This document shows, one piece after another, positions 35,146 through 45,936 of a stretch of 64,000 bases of DNA. Position 1 is the stretch's first letter. Each line of letters starts with the position of its first letter. Origin of the DNA: Aureimonas altamirensis (GTDB lineage Bacteria; Pseudomonadota; Alphaproteobacteria; Rhizobiales; Rhizobiaceae); assembly GCF_001463885.1 (NCBI RefSeq), contig NZ_BBWQ01000005.1:62001-126000 (forward strand), read 5' to 3'. Under the pieces are notes generated by a model. That model was not told the DNA's origin and searched no databases. It saw only the letters and a list, made by a program, of their open reading frames with translations. Both the position numbers and the translations under genes were made by a program.

Positions 35146-38022
35146 ATGTCCCTGATCCATGAAAAGGATTTTGGCACCCCGCCCAGTGCGTCGGGCCAGA
35201 CCGTTTCCCTGACGATCGATGGCGTCCGCGTGACGGCCGCCGCGGGAACGTCGATCATGCGGGCGGCCTCCGAGATGGGAACCGCCATCCCGAAGCTGTG
35301 CGCGACCGACAGCCTGGAGCCATTCGGCTCATGCCGGCTCTGCCTGGTGGAGGTGGATGGCCGCATGGGCACGCCGGCCTCCTGCACGACGCCGGTTACG
35401 GAGGGCATGGTCGTGCGTACCCAGACCGAGCGCCTGAAGACGCTGCGCAAGGGGGTGATGGAGCTCTACATCTCGGACCACCCGCTGGACTGCCTAACCT
35501 GCGCGGCCAATGGCGATTGCGAGCTGCAGGACATGGCCGGGGCCGTCGGCCTGCGCGAGGTCCGGTACGGCTACGACGGCGCCAACCACGTCAAGGCGCG
35601 GAACGGCGAGGCGGACAATTTCGCCTATATGCCCAAGGACGAATCCAACCCCTATTTCACCTACGATCCGTCCAAGTGCATCGTATGCTCGCGCTGTGTA
35701 CGCGCCTGCGAGGAAGTGCAGGGCACATTCGCCCTCACCATAGCCGGGCGCGGCTTCGACAGCCGCGTATCGCCCAGCCAGTCGCAGGATTTCTTCTCGT
35801 CGGAATGCGTTTCGTGCGGCGCCTGTGTCCAGGCCTGCCCGACCGCCACGCTGACGGAGCGCAAGGTTATCGAGATCGGCCAGCCGGAGCATTCGGCGAT
35901 CACCACCTGCGCCTATTGCGGTGTGGGCTGCACCTTCAAGGCCGAAATGCGCGGCGAAGAGCTGGTCCGCATGGTGCCGTGGAAGGACGGCAAGGCCAAT
36001 CACGGTCATTCCTGCGTCAAGGGGCGCTTCGCCTGGGGCTACGCCAACCACCGGGAGCGGATCACCACGCCGATGATCCGCGCCTCGACGGCCGATCCGT
36101 GGCAAGAGGTGAGCTGGGAAGAGGCGATCGCCTACGCCGCGTCCGAGTTTCGGCGCATCCAGGCCAGGCATGGCACGGGAAGCGTCGGCGGCATCACCTC
36201 GTCGCGCTGCACCAACGAGGAAACGTTCCTGGTGCAGAAGCTGGTGCGCGCAGGCTTCGGCAACAACAATGTCGATACGTGCGCGCGCGTCTGCCACTCT
36301 CCCACCGGTTATGGCCTGAAAACCACTTTCGGTACGTCCGCCGGCACGCAGGATTTCGATTCCGTCGACCATGCCGACGTCATCATGGTGATCGGCGCCA
36401 ACCCCACCGACGGGCACCCTGTCTTCGGCTCCCGCATGAAGCGGCGGCTGCGGCAGGGCGCAAAGCTGATCGTGGTGGACCCGCGCCGGATCGACCTCGT
36501 GCGGACGCCGCATGTGGAAGCCGCTTTCCACTTGCCGCTGCGCCCCGGCACCAACGTTGCGATGCTGACGGCGATGGCCCATGTGATCGTGACCGAGGGC
36601 CTCATAGACGAGGACTATATCCGCAACCGATGCGACCTGGATGCCTTTGCCGAATGGGCGTCCTTCGTGGCGCAGGAGCGCCATTCCCCCGAAGCCGTGC
36701 AAGACCGCACCGGTGTCCCGGCGGCCGATGTGCGCCAGGCGGCGCGCCTGTACGCGACGGGCGGCAATGCCGCCATCTATTACGGGCTCGGGGTGACAGA
36801 GCACAGCCAGGGCTCCACCACCGTCATGGCGATCGCCAACCTTGCGATGGCCACCGGCAACGTCGGCAAGCCTGGCAGCGGCGTCAATCCGCTACGCGGC
36901 CAGAACAATGTGCAGGGGGCCTGCGACATGGGCTCCTTCCCGCACGAGTTTTCGGGCTACCGGCATGTTTCTGACGGCGCGGCGCGCGGCCTGTTCGAGG
37001 ATGCGTGGGGCGTGCACCTCGACGCGGAGCCCGGCCTGCGCATACCCAACATGCTCGACGAAGCGGTCGCCGGCCGCTTTAAGGGGATCTACATCCAGGG
37101 CGAAGACATCCTCCAGTCCGACCCCAATACCCGCCATGTCGCCGCCGGGCTCGACGCGATGGAATGCGTCGTCGTGCAGGACCTGTTCCTCAACGAGACG
37201 GCCGTCCACGCGCATGTCTTCCTGCCCGGCTCGACCTTCCTGGAAAAGGACGGGACATTCACCAATGCGGAACGGCGCATACAACGGGTGCGCCGCGTCA
37301 TGACCCCGCGCAACGGCTATGCCGACTGGGAGATCACCCAGATGCTGTCCAATGCCTTGGGCTACGAGATGTCCTACGACCATCCGTCGCGCATCATGGA
37401 CGAGATCGCCGCCCTGACGCCGACGTTCCGCGGCGTGACATACGACCGGCTGGACCAGGCGGGTTCCCTGCAATGGCCGGTCAACGAGGCCGCGCCGGAC
37501 GGCACGCCGACCATGCACATGGACGGTTTCGTACGCGGCAAGGGCCTGTTCGTGCTGACGGAGTACGTGCCCACGGACGAGCGGACCGGCCCCCGCTATC
37601 CGCTACTGCTGACCACCGGCCGCACCCTCAGTCAATATAATGTCGGGGCGCAGACGCGGCGCACCGAAAATGTCCGCTGGCACGAGGAGGACCTGCTCGA
37701 AATCCACCCGCACGACGCGGAAGAGCGCGGCATCAAGGACCGCGACTTCGTGCGCGTCGCCAGCCGGGCCGGGGAGACGGCCCTGCGCGCCCACATCACC
37801 GACAGGGTTGCGCCGGGTGTCGTCTACACGACGTTCCACCACCCGCTCACACAGGCCAATGTGGTGACGACCGACTATTCCGACTGGGCCACCAACTGCC
37901 CCGAATACAAGGTGACGGCGGTTCAGGTATCGCCATCCAACGGTCCGAGCGACTGGCAGGAGCGTTACGAGGCGCTCGCAAGCCGCAGCCGCAGGATTGT
38001 ACCGGCGGAGCCGGCGGAATGA
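35146..38022 (+). CDS. fdsA: NAD-dependent formate dehydrogenase alpha subunit (molybdenum/tungsten catalytic subunit)
   Basis: This 958-residue subunit oxidises formate to CO2. The N-terminal 250 residues hold Fe-S sites: a [2Fe-2S] domain, a His-ligated cluster (HPLDCLTCAANGDCELQ), and two [4Fe-4S] motifs (CIVCSRCVRACE and CVSCGACVQACP). A further cluster motif (CAYCGVGCTF) begins the bis-MGD-binding catalytic region. The metal ligand is Cys383, followed by His384 in CARVCHSPTGYG, the Cys-His pair of this family. The molybdopterin dinucleotide domain lies at the C-terminus. The fdsD ATG overlaps its stop. No separate fdsC lies in the operon. Confidence 0.95.
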   Translation: MSLIHEKDFGTPPSASGQTVSLTIDGVRVTAAAGTSIMRAASEMGTAIPKLCATDSLEPFGSCRLCLVEVDGRMGTPASCTTPVTEGMVVRTQTERLKTLRKGVMELYISDHPLDCLTCAANGDCELQDMAGAVGLREVRYGYDGANHVKARNGEADNFAYMPKDESNPYFTYDPSKCIVCSRCVRACEEVQGTFALTIAGRGFDSRVSPSQSQDFFSSECVSCGACVQACPTATLTERKVIEIGQPEHSAITTCAYCGVGCTFKAEMRGEELVRMVPWKDGKANHGHSCVKGRFAWGYANHRERITTPMIRASTADPWQEVSWEEAIAYAASEFRRIQARHGTGSVGGITSSRCTNEETFLVQKLVRAGFGNNNVDTCARVCHSPTGYGLKTTFGTSAGTQDFDSVDHADVIMVIGANPTDGHPVFGSRMKRRLRQGAKLIVVDPRRIDLVRTPHVEAAFHLPLRPGTNVAMLTAMAHVIVTEGLIDEDYIRNRCDLDAFAEWASFVAQERHSPEAVQDRTGVPAADVRQAARLYATGGNAAIYYGLGVTEHSQGSTTVMAIANLAMATGNVGKPGSGVNPLRGQNNVQGACDMGSFPHEFSGYRHVSDGAARGLFEDAWGVHLDAEPGLRIPNMLDEAVAGRFKGIYIQGEDILQSDPNTRHVAAGLDAMECVVVQDLFLNETAVHAHVFLPGSTFLEKDGTFTNAERRIQRVRRVMTPRNGYADWEITQMLSNALGYEMSYDHPSRIMDEIAALTPTFRGVTYDRLDQAGSLQWPVNEAAPDGTPTMHMDGFVRGKGLFVLTEYVPTDERTGPRYPLLLTTGRTLSQYNVGAQTRRTENVRWHEEDLLEIHPHDAEERGIKDRDFVRVASRAGETALRAHITDRVAPGVVYTTFHHPLTQANVVTTDYSDWATNCPEYKVTAVQVSPSNGPSDWQERYEALASRSRRIVPAEPAE

Positions 38023-38844: not shown

Positions 38845-39609
38845 ATGCATATGCTGTATCAACCGTCAGGTGCCCAGATGCTGGCGCGCAAGCTGTCCGG
38901 TATCGGCAATCTCCTGCCGGAGGACGAGGCGGCGATCGCCGCGCTGGACATGACCGTCATGAATGTCGCGGCCGGCCATCTGATCGCGGAAGAAGGCTCC
39001 AGCCCCCGCCACTGCTGCGTCATCATCGCGGGCCTGGCCTGCCGGTACAAGATCCTCGTCGACGGCAAGCGACAGATCATGTCCTTCCACACGCCGGGCG
39101 ACTTTCCCGATTTCTACAGCCTCCATGTCGATGTGATGGACCATAGTCTCGCGGCGGCGACGCCCTGCCAACTCGGGCTCGTTCCGCATTCCATATTCCG
39201 GCAGTGGGTGCGACGGCACCCCCACCTGGCCAACCTGTTGTGGCGCGATACGCTGATCGACGGATCGATGTTCCGGGAATGGATCGTCAATGTCGGCCGC
39301 AGGCCGGGTCCGCGCCGCATATGCCATCTCCTGTGCGAACTGGCGGTCAGGCTGGAGAATGTCGGTCTGGCGGAGGCCGGACGCATTCCCTTTCCGCTCA
39401 CGCAATCGGACCTCAGCGATGCCGTGGGCCTGTCGGTGGTGCATGTGAACCGGGTGCTTCAGGATCTGAAGTCGCAGAACATCGTGCTGTTCCACAACAA
39501 GGAGGCCGTCATCGCCGACTGGCCCAAGCTGCGGGCCATGGCGCAATTCGACGGTGCCTATCTGCATCTGAAAGATGGCGGACGGCAGTTGCGCCACTTC
39601 AAGATTTGA
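38845..39609 (+). CDS. Crp/Fnr-family transcriptional regulator
   Basis: This 254-residue protein has an N-terminal cyclic-nucleotide-type sensor barrel (about 15-135) and a C-terminal Crp-type helix-turn-helix (LTQSDLSDAVGLSVVHVNRV). It lacks the N-terminal cysteine cluster of oxygen-sensing FNR, so it is not a [4Fe-4S] sensor; a CC pair in PRHCCVIIAG is of unknown meaning. The sensor ligand is unknown. ATG 38845 has GAGAGGA upstream; two further in-frame starts nearby are possible. It ends at a bidirectional hairpin. Confidence 0.85.
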   Translation: MHMLYQPSGAQMLARKLSGIGNLLPEDEAAIAALDMTVMNVAAGHLIAEEGSSPRHCCVIIAGLACRYKILVDGKRQIMSFHTPGDFPDFYSLHVDVMDHSLAAATPCQLGLVPHSIFRQWVRRHPHLANLLWRDTLIDGSMFREWIVNVGRRPGPRRICHLLCELAVRLENVGLAEAGRIPFPLTQSDLSDAVGLSVVHVNRVLQDLKSQNIVLFHNKEAVIADWPKLRAMAQFDGAYLHLKDGGRQLRHFKI

Positions 39610-39655: not shown

Positions 39656-41485
39656 TCAGATGTTGCGGACGGCGCCCTTGGCGGCGCTTGTCGTCATGGA
39701 CGCATAGGCCCGCAGCGCAGCGGTGACACGGCGCTTGCGCGGCTCGGCCGGCTGCCAGCCGAGCTTTTCCTGTTCGGCGCGGCGATGTGCCAGTTCGTCA
39801 TCGGCCACGGCCAGATGGATGCTGCGGTTGGGGATGTCAATCTCGATCCGGTCACCGTCCCGCACCAGACCGATGGTGCCGCCTTCCGCCGCCTCGGGCG
39901 AGACGTGGCCGATCGACAGGCCGGAAGAGCCGCCCGAAAAGCGTCCGTCCGTCACCAGCGCGCAGGCCTTTCCGAGGCCCTTGGACTTCAAATAGCTCGT
40001 TGGATAGAGCATTTCCTGCATGCCGGGGCCGCCGCGCGGGCCTTCGTAGCGGATCAACACCACGTCGCCAGCCTGCACCTGCTTGTTGAGGATGCCGTAG
40101 ACAGCTGCGTCCTGGCTTTCGAAGATGCGTGCGGTGCCGTGGAATTTCAGGATGCTTTCATCCACGCCCGCCGTTTTGACGATGCAGCCGTACTCGGCCA
40201 GATTGCCGTACAGTACCGCCAGGCCGCCATCCTTGGAGTAGGCATGCTCGACGTTGCGGATGACACCCTTCTGGCGGTCGGTATCCAGATCGGCGAAGCG
40301 ACGATCCTGGCTGAAGGCCACCTGCGTCGGCACGCCGCCCGGCGCGGCGCGGAAGAACTCGCTGACCGAACGGCTTTCGGTCCGGATGACGTCCCAGCGG
40401 TCGAGCGCGTCGGCCATGCTTTCGGCATGGACGCAGCCGACGCTGGTATCCAGGAGGCCGCCGCGATCCAGCTCACCCAGAATGCCCATGATGCCGCCGG
40501 CGTGGTGCACATCCTCCATGTGGACGTTGGCAACGGCGGGGGCCACCTTGCACAGGACGGGCACGCGCCGGGACAGGCGGTCGATGTCCTCCATGGTGAA
40601 ATCCACCTCGGCTTCGTGTGCCGCCGCCAGGAGGTGAAGGACGGTGTTGGTGGAGCCGCCCATGGCGATGTCCAGCGTCATCGCGTTTTCAAAGGCGGCA
40701 AAGGTGGCGATGGAGCGCGGCAGGACCGACGCATCGTCCTGTTCGTAATAACGGCGCGCCAGATCTACCACCAGGTGGCCGGCCTCGACGAAGAGGCGGC
40801 GCCTGTCGGCATGGGTGGCCAGCGTGGACCCGTTGCCCGGCAGCGAAAGCCCGAGCGCCTCCGTCAGGCAGTTCATGGAGTTGGCGGTGAACATGCCGGA
40901 GCAGGAGCCGCAGGTGGGGCAGGCCGACCGTTCGATCGCCTGCACCTCTTCGTCGGAGATGCGGTCGTCGGCCGCGGCCACCATCGCGTCGACGAGGTCG
41001 AGCTTCTTTTCGGTGCCTTCCCGGGTCACCTTGCCGGCCTCCATCGGGCCGCCAGACACGAAGACGACCGGTATGTTCAGCCGCATGGCGGCCATCAGCA
41101 TGCCGGGCGTGATCTTGTCGCAGTTGGAAATGCACACCATGGCGTCCGCGCAATGGGCGTTCACCATGTATTCGACGCTGTCGGCGATCAGCTCGCGCGA
41201 GGGCAGCGAATACAGCATGCCATCATGCCCCATCGCGATGCCGTCATCCACGGCGATCGTGTTGAACTCCTTGGCGACACCGCCGGCAAGCTCGATCTCC
41301 CGCGCGACGAGCTGGCCAAGATCCTTCAGGTGCACATGCCCCGGCACGAACTGCGTGAACGAGTTGACCACCGCGATGATCGGCTTGCCGAAATCGCTGT
41401 CCTTCATGCCGGTGGCGCGCCACAGGCCACGGGCACCGGCCATGTTGCGGCCGTGCGTGGTCGTGCGTGAGCGATATGGGGGCAT
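39656..41485 (-). CDS. ilvD: Dihydroxy-acid dehydratase
   Basis: This enzyme dehydrates 2,3-dihydroxy-isovalerate and -methylvalerate in valine, isoleucine and leucine synthesis. The 609-residue chain has the Fe-S cysteines in [12 protein letters not shown] and [17 protein letters not shown], and [20 protein letters not shown] near the C-terminus. The ATG at 41485 follows AGGAAGCAGGG and begins [15 protein letters not shown], the normal family start; the open frame extends further upstream but over a promoter-like region. Confidence 0.96.
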
Positions 41486-41593: not shown

Positions 41594-41609
41594 CGTAACG
41601 CATGTTACG
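41594..41609. promoter_or_regulatory. CGTAAC-N4-GTTACG palindrome upstream of ilvD
   Basis: A perfect 6-bp inverted repeat with a GCAT centre lies 109 bases from the ilvD start and 117 before the ATPase start. On the minus strand it is directly upstream of a possible ilvD promoter (TTGTAC, 17 bases, CATATG). The binding protein is unknown. Confidence 0.4.
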
Positions 41610-41642: not shown

Positions 41643-41656
41643 TTGATTTCGATCAA
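41643..41656. promoter_or_regulatory. FNR/FixK-type box before the P-type ATPase gene
   Basis: TTGAT-TTCG-ATCAA is a perfect match to the FNR/FixK anaerobox (TTGAT-N4-ATCAA). It is centred about 76 bases before the chosen ATG at 41726, and a class II promoter would put the start of transcription near 41691. This predicts induction of the ATPase and universal stress protein at low oxygen. Confidence 0.75.
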
Positions 41657-41725
41657 TTCCTGCTTGCCGCGAATCGTTCATGAAGCAACCTTTGGTGGCA
41701 GATGACGGAGAGCGGGAGCGCGGAC

Positions 41726-44419
41726 ATGAGCAAAGCGCCGGATGCCGAGGCCCAGGAAAGCGCACTCGATAACGCCTATTCGATGTCGCCCACGCACGTC
41801 ATGCGTGTTCTTGCCGCGCGGGCCGATGGCCTTACGGGCGAGGAGGCGCGCGAGCGTCTGGCCACGCATGGCCCGAACCGTCTGCCCGAACGGCGCCGGA
41901 AGCACCCCGCCATGCGCTTTCTGGCGCAGTTCAACAATGTGCTGATCTACTTCCTGCTTGCCGCCTCGCTTGCAGCCTTCGCGCTCAACCACGTCATAGA
42001 TGGCGCGGTGATCGTGGCCGTCGTCTTCATCAATGCCGTTATCGGCTTCGTTCAGGAAGGCAAGGCAGAGAACGCGCTGGACGCGATCCGCGACATGATC
42101 GCGCCCCACGCCTTCGCCCTGCGGGACGGACGGCGGACCAAGCTGGCGGTCGCCGACCTCGTGCCGGGCGATATCGTACTGCTGGAAGCCGGAGACAAGG
42201 TGCCCGCCGACCTGCGCATCATCGAAGCGCGTGCCGCGCTTGTCGACGAGGCGGTGCTGACGGGCGAATCTGTACCGGCGCACAAATCCGCCGAGCCCGT
42301 GGCGGATGCCGCGGCGCTGGGCGACCGCGCCTCCATGCTCTACTCCGGAACGCTGATGGCAACGGGGCAGGCGCGTGCCGTCGTTGTCGGGACAGGCGGC
42401 AACACGGAGATCGGCCGGATCAGCGCGCTGATGGGGGCGGTCGAAAGCCTGCAGACGCCGCTGCTGCGCCAGATCAACCATTTCGGCACGTTGTTCACCT
42501 ATTTCGCGCTGGCGCTCTCGGTGCTGCTTTTCGCCTTCGCCACGCTGGTGCGCGGCTACAACGCGGTGGACGCGCTGATGGTCGTGGTGTCCCTGGCGGT
42601 CGGCGTCGTGCCGGAGGGTCTCCCTGCGGTCATAACCATTACCCTGGCCATCGGCGTGCAGCGCATGGCGGCCCGCCACGCCATCGTGCGCCGCCTGCCG
42701 GCGGTGGAAACGCTCGGCGCGACATCCGTCATCTGCTCGGACAAGACGGGTACGCTCACCCGCAACGAGATGACCGCGCGTCATCTGGTTACTCCGGGTC
42801 TTGCGGCCGTCGTGGAAGGGGCGGGGTACCGGCCCGAAGGCCGGGTGGGCGATGGTTTCGTCGCGGTGGCGCCGCTTCCCCAAGGCGAAACCGACCTTCT
42901 TCTTTACTGCGCGGCGCTTTGTAACGATGCCGAGCTGGTCCACACGGATGGCGACTGGCGCGTTCTGGGTGATCCGATGGAAGGCGCTCTGTTGGCGCTG
43001 GCGCGCAAGGCCGGCCTGACGCCCGATGGCCTCGCCGCATGGAAGCGGCAGGATACGATCCCGTTCGATGCGGAGCATCGCTTCATGGCGACGCTGCACG
43101 CCGGGCCCGACGCAGAGCGCTGGGTGTTCGTAAAGGGTGCGCCGGAGCGCCTGCTGGCCATGGCCGCCGGCGCGGATACCGCGCGCTGGGAGGGCGAGAT
43201 CGCCGACGCGGCCTCGCGTGGCGAACGCGTGCTCGGCTTTGCCGCCCGTCCAGCCTCCGCAGGAGAGACGACCCTTGCCATGGAGCGGCTGGGCGAGGGA
43301 CTGACATTCGTGGGCATCGTCGGCCTGATCGATCCGCCCCGCGACGAGGCCATCACGGCCATCGCCGATTGCCGCACGGCCGGCATCACGGTCAAGATGA
43401 TCACAGGCGACCATAAGGACACGGCGGCCGCCATCGCGCGGCAGTTGCATCTGGCGGACGACCCGAAGGCGATGACGGGGGCGGAACTGGATGAAGTGGC
43501 CGAAGCCGATCTTCCTTCGGTGGCGCGCTCGGTCAGCGTTTTCGCGCGGACCAATCCGGAGCACAAGCTGCGTATCGTCCGCGCCCTGCAATCCAACGGG
43601 CAGGTGGTTGCCATGACGGGCGACGGCGTTAATGACGCTCCGTCCCTCAAGCAGGCCGACGTCGGCGTGGCCATGGGCCGCAAGGGTACGGAGGCCGCCA
43701 AGGAAGCGGCGGAGATGGTGCTGGCGAACGACGATTTCGCCTCCATCGTTGCCGCCGTGCGGGAAGGGCGCACCGTCTACGACAACATCCGCAAGGTGAT
43801 CGCCTGGACGCTGCCCACCAATGGCGGCGAAGTCCTGGCTGTCGTTGTCGCCCTGTTCATCGGTGCGACCTTGCCGATGTCGCCGGCGCAGATCCTGTGG
43901 ATCAACATGATCCTCACCATCACACTCGGCCTCGTGCTGGCCTTCGAACCGCCGGAGCCGCGCGTGATGGATCGTCCGCCACGCTCCGCCGATGCGCCGC
44001 TCCTGTCGCCGTTCCTGCTGTGGCGGATCTGCTTTGTCTCTCTGCTCTTCACGCTTGGCGTCTTCTTCATCTTCAACTGGGCGCTCTGGCGTGGCCATGG
44101 CGTCGATATCGCCCGCACCATGGTGGTCAACCAGCTGGTGGTGATGGAAATCTTCTACCTCTTCAACGTCCGCTACCTGCATCAGGGCTCGATCAGCCTG
44201 CGCGGCATTCTCGGCACGCCCGTGCTTCTGCTCGCCTTGGCGGCGGTCACGCTGGCGCAGTTCGCATTCACTTACCTTCCGGTCATGCATGCGCTGTTTG
44301 CCAGCGCACCGGTGCCTTTTGCAGACGGGACGCTGATCCTTTTGGTCGGCATCGTTCTGTTGCTGATACTGGAAGTTGAAAAGGTGCTCATCGGCAAAAC
44401 CGGATTTGGACGGGAATGA
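41726..44419 (+). CDS. P-type cation-transporting ATPase (type II)
   Basis: This 897-residue cation pump of the inner membrane is phosphorylated at Asp339 in DKTGTLT. Other parts are standard: N-terminal domain, actuator motif LTGESVPA, transmembrane PEGLPAVITITLAIG, hinge TGDGVNDAPSLK and C-terminal helices. The PEGLP motif is that of type II pumps for Ca2+, Mn2+ or Na+/K+, so calcium-type specificity is possible but not proven. The ATG at 41726 has GGGAG 7 bases away; one at 41702 is an alternative. The stop overlaps an ATG in the next frame, and the usp start lies 30 bases on. Confidence 0.9.
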   Translation: MSKAPDAEAQESALDNAYSMSPTHVMRVLAARADGLTGEEARERLATHGPNRLPERRRKHPAMRFLAQFNNVLIYFLLAASLAAFALNHVIDGAVIVAVVFINAVIGFVQEGKAENALDAIRDMIAPHAFALRDGRRTKLAVADLVPGDIVLLEAGDKVPADLRIIEARAALVDEAVLTGESVPAHKSAEPVADAAALGDRASMLYSGTLMATGQARAVVVGTGGNTEIGRISALMGAVESLQTPLLRQINHFGTLFTYFALALSVLLFAFATLVRGYNAVDALMVVVSLAVGVVPEGLPAVITITLAIGVQRMAARHAIVRRLPAVETLGATSVICSDKTGTLTRNEMTARHLVTPGLAAVVEGAGYRPEGRVGDGFVAVAPLPQGETDLLLYCAALCNDAELVHTDGDWRVLGDPMEGALLALARKAGLTPDGLAAWKRQDTIPFDAEHRFMATLHAGPDAERWVFVKGAPERLLAMAAGADTARWEGEIADAASRGERVLGFAARPASAGETTLAMERLGEGLTFVGIVGLIDPPRDEAITAIADCRTAGITVKMITGDHKDTAAAIARQLHLADDPKAMTGAELDEVAEADLPSVARSVSVFARTNPEHKLRIVRALQSNGQVVAMTGDGVNDAPSLKQADVGVAMGRKGTEAAKEAAEMVLANDDFASIVAAVREGRTVYDNIRKVIAWTLPTNGGEVLAVVVALFIGATLPMSPAQILWINMILTITLGLVLAFEPPEPRVMDRPPRSADAPLLSPFLLWRICFVSLLFTLGVFFIFNWALWRGHGVDIARTMVVNQLVVMEIFYLFNVRYLHQGSISLRGILGTPVLLLALAAVTLAQFAFTYLPVMHALFASAPVPFADGTLILLVGIVLLLILEVEKVLIGKTGFGRE

Positions 44420-44448: not shown

Positions 44449-45297
44449 ATGTCACCTGCGTACAAGACTGTCATGCTGACGCTCCTGCCCGAGGCGCAAG
44501 TGCGCAGCGCCGCCAGCCCCGCAACCGCGATGGCCATTGCCATCACACGGCACTTCGGCGGGCGTCTTACCATCGATTTCCTGTCGCCGCAGCCGGCCTG
44601 GATTCCGTACAGCCTGGTCACCGACATGCCGGGCCAGATGCTGGCCGAGCAGACACGCAAGCTGGAAGCGCAGGCGCATGCCAGCATCGACCTGGCGGCC
44701 TCGGCTGCGCGGCAGGCGGGCATCGATCCGGAAGCACAGTTGATCTCGCTCGATTTCCTGGCTCTGGTCGGCCGTGCGGCCCTGCGCGCCCAGTTGCAGG
44801 ATGTCGTGGTGGTGGATGCCGGCGGCAGCAGCCTGCGCGACGAACGCGAGATCGTCGAGGCGCTGCTTTTCCGCAGCGGCCGTCCTGTGATCCGCGTTCC
44901 CGCCACAAGCCCAGGCACCCTGCCATCAAAGGTCCTCGTCGCCTGGGATGGCAGCGTGCCGGCCGTGCGCGCGGTGCGTGAAGCATTGCCCATGCTGCAC
45001 CAGGCCGGCGACGTTCAAATCGTCACCGTGCGCGGAGAGAAGGATGTGTCCAACATCCAGCCCGCCGAAAAGCTGGTTGGCTATCTGTCGGCGCATGGCA
45101 TATCGGCTTCAGAAACGGTGTTGACCGCGGCGCGCCGCAACGTCGCCGATGCGTTGCGCAACCATGCCCTGGATCAGGGAGCGGACCTTCTGGTGATGGG
45201 TGCCTATGCACATTCCCGCATGCAGCAAGCCGTTCTGGGCGGGGTCACGAGCGAACTCCTGAACGATAGCCCGATACCGCTTCTGCTGGCGCACTGA
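44449..45297 (+). CDS. Universal stress protein with two Usp domains
   Basis: This is a 282-residue tandem universal stress protein. The second domain (about 150-282) has the nucleotide-binding loop DLLVMGAYAHSRMQQAVLGG followed by SELLNDSPIPLLLAH, and begins VLVAWDGSVPAVRA. The first domain is more divergent. The start at 44449 has AGAGGA 9 bases upstream; an ATG at 44416 overlaps the ATPase stop. Pairs of Usp genes with pumps under FNR control are a recurring theme in low-oxygen responses; the actual ligand (ATP or AMP) is not determined. Confidence 0.85.
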   Translation: MSPAYKTVMLTLLPEAQVRSAASPATAMAIAITRHFGGRLTIDFLSPQPAWIPYSLVTDMPGQMLAEQTRKLEAQAHASIDLAASAARQAGIDPEAQLISLDFLALVGRAALRAQLQDVVVVDAGGSSLRDEREIVEALLFRSGRPVIRVPATSPGTLPSKVLVAWDGSVPAVRAVREALPMLHQAGDVQIVTVRGEKDVSNIQPAEKLVGYLSAHGISASETVLTAARRNVADALRNHALDQGADLLVMGAYAHSRMQQAVLGGVTSELLNDSPIPLLLAH

Positions 45298-45312: not shown

Positions 45313-45936
45313 CTATTTCCACGTTGCCGCGTACATGTTGCGCGATGCGCAATCAGCCTCCTCCCGCTGCAGCGACGGCAGGTCGCCCTGCAGTCTCTGC
45401 GGGCGGCCATTGCGCAGGTCCAGGATGGCGTCCGACACCGCCAGGCAGCGCTCGCGCGCGACATAGTACTGGAACGTGTCGGATGCGCCGAACGAGCCGC
45501 CATAGGCCCAATGCGCGAACAGCCCCAAGGCGACAAGAAGCGTTATGACGGCCGGCATGGATCCAAAGCGCGGCCGGTCCGCATCCCAATCGCTGTAGGC
45601 AGCGGTCTTTTCTGCCGCCGGCGCTGATTCCGGCTGACGGGTCGGGAGGCTCATCACAGGAACGATCGTGGCCGGCAGGGTGAAGGGGGCGCTTTCGCCC
45701 CGGCCCATGATGGCGGCTTCCAGATCGTGGCGCGCCTCGTGCAGCCGACGCTCGAACTCGATGCGTACCGAGGGGTCCGCATCGGCGTCGATTTCGCAGA
45801 TCATTTCGGCCTTGCCGAGCATGCGCGCCGTGGCGACCAACTGAAGAACATGAGACCGCAGCTCAGGTGACATCGGCTCCGCGGATAAAGCGGGACCAAC
45901 CGGTTCGGCATCCTTTGGGGGGCCGGACAAATGCAC
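45313..45936 (-). CDS. Hypothetical single-pass membrane protein
   Basis: This 207-residue protein has no recognised domain. The first 80 residues are charged and partly helical. A Pro/Ala-rich linker follows (about 85-115), then one transmembrane helix (about 128-147, MPAVITLLVALGLFAHWAYG) and a C-terminal region with two cysteines. It begins at GTG 45936, with a GGAG 8 bases upstream that fits well; the next ATG is 21 codons on. It converges with the Usp gene and diverges, across 283 AT-rich bases, from the phospholipase D gene. Confidence 0.65.
   Translation of the reverse strand: MHLSGPPKDAEPVGPALSAEPMSPELRSHVLQLVATARMLGKAEMICEIDADADPSVRIEFERRLHEARHDLEAAIMGRGESAPFTLPATIVPVMSLPTRQPESAPAAEKTAAYSDWDADRPRFGSMPAVITLLVALGLFAHWAYGGSFGASDTFQYYVARERCLAVSDAILDLRNGRPQRLQGDLPSLQREEADCASRNMYAATWK

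Follow-up and report, generated by a model that had tools for sequence, protein, structure and literature searches.

The regulons of FnrL, FnrN and FixK in Alphaproteobacteria, which are associated with the palindrome TTGAT-N4-ATCAA (the anaerobox), are the described systems closest to the locus reported here, and they share with it both the sequence of the box and the type of regulator. According to PMC2908626, hemN and uspA are predicted members of the core alphaproteobacterial FNR regulon; the P-type ATPase of that core regulon is of the heavy-metal type (RSP0690), whereas the ATPase described below is P2A-like. The ChIP-chip table for FnrL of Rhodobacter sphaeroides in the same source marks some canonical sites as negatively regulated. 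In Rhizobium leguminosarum, according to PMC7888657, activating anaeroboxes occupy a nearly fixed position before the transcription start.

Control of cation-transporting P-type ATPases by low oxygen is already known from two other bacteria. In Pseudomonas aeruginosa, the cation-transporting P-type ATPase PA1429 is found among a subset of anr regulon genes (Table 1 of PMC8087004) and is also tabulated in PMC8575079, which deals with Anr and anaerobic metabolism. The resemblance of PA1429 to the pump described here is one of description, and both its regulator and the bacterial class are different. PMC8087004 also reports an increase in universal stress proteins when anr is mutated in P. aeruginosa. 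In the actinobacterium Mycobacterium tuberculosis, the hypoxia regulator DosR controls the P2A ATPase CtpF (PMC9180918); CtpF is described as a Ca2+ ATPase that lacks the equivalent of D800 of SERCA, as well as A305, while keeping the other Ca2+-binding residues (PMC7525011). CtpF is thus regulated by low oxygen, as is predicted for the pump described here, and like that pump is devoid of D800, although DosR is not an FNR protein and the comparison is again one of descriptions.

No paper was found that treats FNR, a cation-transporting ATPase, a universal stress protein and an anaerobic binding site jointly. Among the matches listed, there was no report on the control of this pump-usp operon and no regulatory study on FNR in Aureimonas, and PMC4999443 makes no mention of ATPase, universal stress, Aurantimonas, cation or usp.

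The FNR/FixK box and the genes that follow it

The stretch of DNA that was analysed, 64 kb in length, is referred to as the window. It contains a predicted FNR/FixK box, TTGATTTCGATCAA, with all 10 specified bases of the TTGAT-N4-ATCAA palindrome, located in the intergenic region between ilvD and the pump gene (Table 1). An exact anaerobox at this place, followed by genes for a P-type ATPase and a universal stress protein (Usp), had been pointed out in the preliminary description, and both parts of that statement hold: the box is the single exact copy in the window, the first gene has the Pfam matches of a P-type ATPase, and the product of the second matches Pfam Usp in its C-terminal half.

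Table 1. Position of the box, of the neighbouring genes and of other sequence elements in the window.
Feature	Position	Strand	Remarks
Crp-family regulator	38845..39609	+	no Cys cluster, no E..SR helix; unlikely partner of the box
ilvD (dihydroxy-acid dehydratase)	39656..41485	-	divergent neighbour of the pump
Second palindrome, CGTAAC-GCAT-GTTACG	41594..41609	.	between the FNR box and ilvD
FNR/FixK box (anaerobox), TTGATTTCGATCAA	41643..41656	.	centre 41649.5
Putative -10 element, CATGAA	41679..41684	+	22 nt after the box; weak, 3/6 to TATAAT
Cation-transporting P-type (P2A-like) ATPase	41726..44419	+	897 aa from the conserved ATG
Universal stress protein	44449..45297	+	282 aa; Pfam Usp
Gene on the far side of the pump-usp pair	45313..45936	-	no Pfam or NCBIfam match

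The exact form of the box is rare. Dinucleotide shuffles of the window (n = 100) contained on average 0.01 exact copies, with a match in one shuffle of the hundred, and the whole genome (an assembly of 4.19 Mb) contains two, compared to ~0.37 expected from base composition. For the looser form TTGAY-N4-RTCAA, six sites are observed where ~3.1 are expected on the same basis, and therefore the exact form alone stands out in the genome; forms with at most one mismatch number 76. When the four remaining TTGAY-N4-RTCAA sites were inspected by eye, two were found to lie within reading frames and the other two shortly 5' of frames for a transporter protein and an oxidoreductase-like protein. A control pattern obtained by reading the box backwards (0 exact sites against 2, and 6 against 76 with one mismatch) was disregarded, because TAG, an uncommon trinucleotide in coding DNA, is part of it.

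The reading that we prefer, and to which we assign a probability of roughly 0.84, is that the box would be a functional operator of an FNR-type sensor encoded in the same genome, which would serve as a class II activator of an operon formed by the ATPase and usp genes. The two genes may well be transcribed together, with 29 bases separating the stop codon of the ATPase from the ATG used here for usp and with no terminator-like site found between them.

Predicted promoter layout

The distance between the box and the CAT(G/C)AA element is 22 nt in all four box-bearing genomes of the genus (the genome that carries the window, G000, as well as G005, G012, and G017). When offsets from 12 to 33 were compared over 18 box-bearing loci, the mean match to TATAAT was highest (2.22 of 6) at the same spacing of 22. 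Both observations are as expected for class II activation, with the box at about -41.5 and a transcription start probably near 41691. The ATG at 41726 is kept in the two closest relatives and an upstream ATG at 41702 is absent from both, so that a start near 41691 would yield a leader of ~35 bases. The placement at class II distance proposed in the preliminary description would fit the conserved spacing; the -10-like element itself is weak, and a consensus promoter scan of the region upstream of the pump found no promoter.

The sign of regulation is deduced from position only, since sites of this kind may also serve FNR for repression (PMC2908626). Among the alternatives to class II activation, the one that survives best is therefore that FNR binds to the box but mainly represses transcription, or that the box is part of a more complex promoter. 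The weakness of the -10-like element and a start position that is itself deduced leave some room for it, as do the canonical FnrL sites of R. sphaeroides that are marked as negative; we nevertheless consider it improbable, as the 22-nt spacing is conserved in four genomes and the mean match to the -10 consensus is highest at exactly that spacing.

An FNR-type regulator encoded in the genome

The genome contains 18 matches to HTH_Crp_2, of which 10 are over the cut-off. Six of these proteins also match the cNMP domain, and the sequences of all six were read. An FNR cysteine cluster together with an ETVSR recognition helix is present in one of the six, encoded at G000:C20:232876-233613 and called below the C20 protein. 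Its N-terminal cysteines are found in CETACASCDVRALSLC, and its central cysteine adjoins, in the alignment, the central cysteine of an FNR of known structure; in FNR, the N-terminal and central cysteines are the ligands of the [4Fe-4S] cluster. Scores of the C20 protein against the curated NCBIfam models for FnrL (164.7 of 300 bits) and Fnr (103.3 of 228 bits) are both below the cut-off, and the protein is accordingly called FNR-type and not FnrL. A candidate partner regulator encoded elsewhere in the genome, as had been expected when the box was first noticed, is therefore available.

Next to the gene of the C20 protein are cydC and cydD. The other perfect box of the genome is also found beside it, between cydDC and cydAB-hemN. 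In this arrangement, and in having no CcoN over the cut-off, the genome differs from those with the FnrL/FnrN/FixK regulons described. A regulon based on the cbb3 oxidase was considered and rejected, the CcoN match in the genome being weak and below the cut-off (29.2 of 583.15 bits). The gene of the C20 protein or a close relative (E < 1e-80) is present in 10 of the 21 genomes of the genus, and nine of these ten have a perfect box at a distance of no more than ~6 kb from it; for G019, the remaining one, the contig that carries the gene has no listed box.

According to the mechanism that we propose, a fall in oxygen would allow this FnrN/FnrL-like sensor, whose gene adjoins cydDC and cydAB-hemN, to carry a [4Fe-4S] cluster and to dimerise. 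The dimer would then bind at 41643-41656, about -41.5, and from this class II position would activate the ATPase-usp operon, which would be transcribed from near 41691. The pump and the Usp protein may in turn have a role in ion balance and in survival under limited respiration. Seen in this way, the pump-usp box would be a convincing and fairly ordinary low-oxygen switch, and what began as a guess about one site becomes a small testable regulon comprising cydDC, cydAB-hemN, and pump-usp.

Use of the site by another Crp/Fnr protein of the genome is somewhat less probable still than repression. One candidate would be the regulator encoded at 38845 in the window, since its gene lies ~2.8 kb from the box and is kept beside ilvD in G012, G005, and G014. 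However, this protein and the four others with both HTH_Crp_2 and cNMP domains (L016, L018, L020, and L021) have neither the E..SR residues nor the cysteine cluster, and G014 retains the homologue of the 38845 gene together with ilvD, yet has no box there. The absence of the cluster from the 38845 protein agrees with the earlier view that it is not the obvious partner. Two more proteins, of 218 and 167 aa, match the cNMP domain but not HTH_Crp_2; the twelve remaining HTH_Crp_2 matches, all weak (L022-L033, of which four exceed the cut-off), do not coincide with any cNMP place.

Boxes close to fnr-like genes may be singled out in two other genomes of the collection. On contig C12 of G010, nine of the ten perfect anaeroboxes of that genome are concentrated in ~27 kb (181073-208382), near an FNR-like gene at 209723. 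In G017, a perfect box (G017:C4:163621-163634) immediately follows an fnr-like gene; the gene after this box encodes a protein with 62% identity to HemN of G000.

Conservation within the genus

The pump is present in five of the 21 genomes of the genus, and in all five a Usp homologue is encoded directly downstream of it. A perfect box precedes the pump in four of the five (G000, G005, G012, and G017). The box of G017 has a different N4 spacer, and the identity of its pump is 73%. Among named genomes, that of Aureimonas altamirensis A31 has the nearest pump (93% identity to that of the window), and for this reason the genus is taken to be Aureimonas; the same box is present in A. altamirensis. 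In the fifth genome, G003, no box is found within 400 bp upstream of the pump. Directly upstream of its pump-usp pair and in the same direction as the pump, G003 has a FixK-like gene (L215, 6674-7369, minus strand), the product of which has an IETVSR helix and no cysteine cluster and scores 203.4 bits where the FixK model requires 300.

The locus of G014 (L224) may be described as empty: the 38845 regulator, ilvD, and the second palindrome are kept, and there is no pump, Usp, or box. A homologue of the 45313-45936 gene (42% identity) adjoins ilvD there, and a short match to the beginning of the 46220 frame is also present. Compared with the loci that carry the pump, this locus indicates that the pump, Usp, and box occur jointly or not at all.

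The same comparison bears on the possibility that the box controls the divergent ilvD and not the pump operon, which has in its favour a shared intergenic region with the box only 157 bases from the start of ilvD. The gene ilvD was found in 19 of the 21 genomes. Where the pump is beside it, the box is present in all four genomes, whereas in the 15 congeners that have ilvD with no adjacent pump, the 1500 bp preceding ilvD contain no TTGAY-N4-RTCAA. Outside the genus, no ilvD match was seen in the examined flanks of box-bearing pumps, with the exception of a dehydratase of 32% identity in L135. Control of ilvD is thus very unlikely. The genome comparison suggests that the pump is the gene to which the site belongs and that a matching oxygen sensor is encoded in the genome.

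Homologous pumps beyond the genus

A set of 101 close homologues, the window pump included, was assembled from 21 found in one search and the best 80 of 243 found in another. Two rows were dropped since they lie inside others (L035 inside L064, L039 inside L066), a homologue in G035 and second copies of the pump in G047, G050, and G051 were left out, and the distant homologues L057-L063 were counted apart. Upstream counts refer to 98 loci, as L082, L097, and L112 have less than 250 bp upstream; L042 and L133, which have identical pumps and no box, were both retained among the 98.

In this set, with its best 80 of 243, TTGAY-N4-RTCAA occurs within 250 bp upstream of 18 of the 98 pumps, of 14 of 93 after removal of the genus, and of 18 of 97 or 14 of 90 after clustering at 98% or 90% identity, respectively. 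For the 96 loci with both flanks (again including the best 80 of 243), the boxes number 18 upstream, none downstream, and none in a gene segment of equal length, and 300 shuffles of the 96 upstream regions yielded a mean of 0.06 boxes and a maximum of one. Extension to 400 bp upstream gives 19 of 96, and flanks of 1400 bp give 27 of 86 upstream vs. 2 of 86 downstream, both with the best 80 of 243 in the set; some of the more distant boxes precede an upstream Usp gene (L066, L075) or a hydrolase gene (Paracoccus). When spacers of 0-11 were tried upstream of the close homologues, a length of four alone gave matches. For 59 permuted half-sites, the average was 0.29 matches, and the two best, with eight each, overlap the perfect box. 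Judging by record titles, the box-bearing loci belong to rhizobia, Hyphomicrobium, Variovorax, Xenophilus, Xanthomonas, and a Porticoccaceae bin, some of them being metagenome bins. A chance match devoid of function is the least probable of the alternatives, for although ~0.37 exact sites are expected genome-wide and the looser form is hardly above its expectation, the box is conserved in G017 in spite of a different spacer, is missing where the pump is missing, and is enriched upstream of the homologues.

The trait is patchy. No box lies within 250 bp upstream of 80 of the 98 close homologues (best 80 of 243 included). With the same inclusion, clusters at 70% identity contain any box in 9 of 42 cases and have every member boxed in two, and clusters at 65% identity contain any box in 4 of 24 and have every member boxed in none. 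The link between box and pump is thus common, not general. The homologue encoded on a plasmid of R. sphaeroides 2.4.1 (54.7% identity) has no box even when one mismatch is allowed. An FnrL ChIP-chip peak of R. sphaeroides on P004 (RSP4201-4) was considered as a mark of this homologue; the plasmid that carries the homologue is named pC in the record used, the 14.5 kb around the homologue contain neither a box with up to one mismatch nor the published sequence of P004, and this interpretation of the peak was dropped.

Features of the pump and of the Usp protein

The pump has Pfam matches to E1-E2_ATPase, Cation_ATPase_N, and Cation_ATPase_C. It scores 617.4 of 798.3 and 609.9 of 703.4 against the NCBIfam models of Ca2+ ATPases, both below the cut-off, and its best matches in the PDB are SPCA1 and LMCA1. 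Homology to these Ca2+ pumps and to SERCA extends over the P2A fold as a whole, and the motifs PEGLP and DKTGT are retained, together with the M5 Asn and Glu, the M6 Asn, and the M8 Glu. The difference lies in the M6 aspartate, D800 in SERCA, the equivalent of which is T739 (numbered from the ATG at 41702). The complete set of P2A ligands of Ca2+, which includes this aspartate, is therefore not present: the motifs are kept and the Asp is replaced. As CtpF is reported to lack D800 and yet to be a Ca2+ ATPase, export of calcium by the window pump is possible by analogy.

In an alignment of 109 rows, in which the window pump appears twice, all rows have the M4 Glu and the phosphorylated Asp, and the M5 Asn is found in 98 rows, the M5 Glu in 106, the M6 Asn in 107, and the M8 Glu in 103. 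The position of Asp800 is occupied in the 101 close homologues (best 80 of 243 included) by Ala, Thr, or Ser in 98 and by Glu, Gly, or Val in three, with Asp in none, whereas of the seven distant homologues (L057-L063) six have Asp and one, L060, has Asn. The idea that loss of Asp800 alone marks the pumps with a box was rejected, as two of the distant homologues, L058 and L063, also carry a box at no more than 250 bp.

The Pfam Usp match of the 282-aa protein (48.1 bits, with a cut-off of 24) covers residues 161-281 only, and an NCBIfam search with this protein gave no match. A Usp-like frame was detected within 500 bp of 20 of the 101 pumps, a number that is probably too low since detection of Usp is probably incomplete. 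In M. tuberculosis, the Usp gene Rv1996 is a neighbour of ctpF.

We can speculate, tentatively and with odds somewhat against it, that the clade of P2A-like pumps lacking Asp800, often with a Usp neighbour, is a low-oxygen cassette with its own FNR/FixK operator that has been wired repeatedly to oxygen regulators. This draws on the FNR/FixK boxes in alpha-, beta-, and gammaproteobacteria, on the FixK-like gene of G003, and perhaps on DosR and CtpF. If this were the case, the pump could have a job specific to respiratory arrest and a changed ion specificity, and the Usp protein could be its energy-sensing partner. The results also add evidence from across genomes that ties cation pumps without Asp800 to low-oxygen control, and the role of these pumps and the ion that they truly carry become a testable question.

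Flanking sequences

The second palindrome probably belongs to the promoter region of ilvD and would lie outside the FNR unit. Its arms are kept, with altered spacers, in G017 and in G014, the latter having neither the pump nor the box at this place, and its pattern occurs in three copies in the genome vs. one for the control read backwards. Just upstream of the gene of the 38845 Crp-family protein, the window encodes the alpha subunit of a formate dehydrogenase (35146-38022; TIGR01591 over the cut-off).
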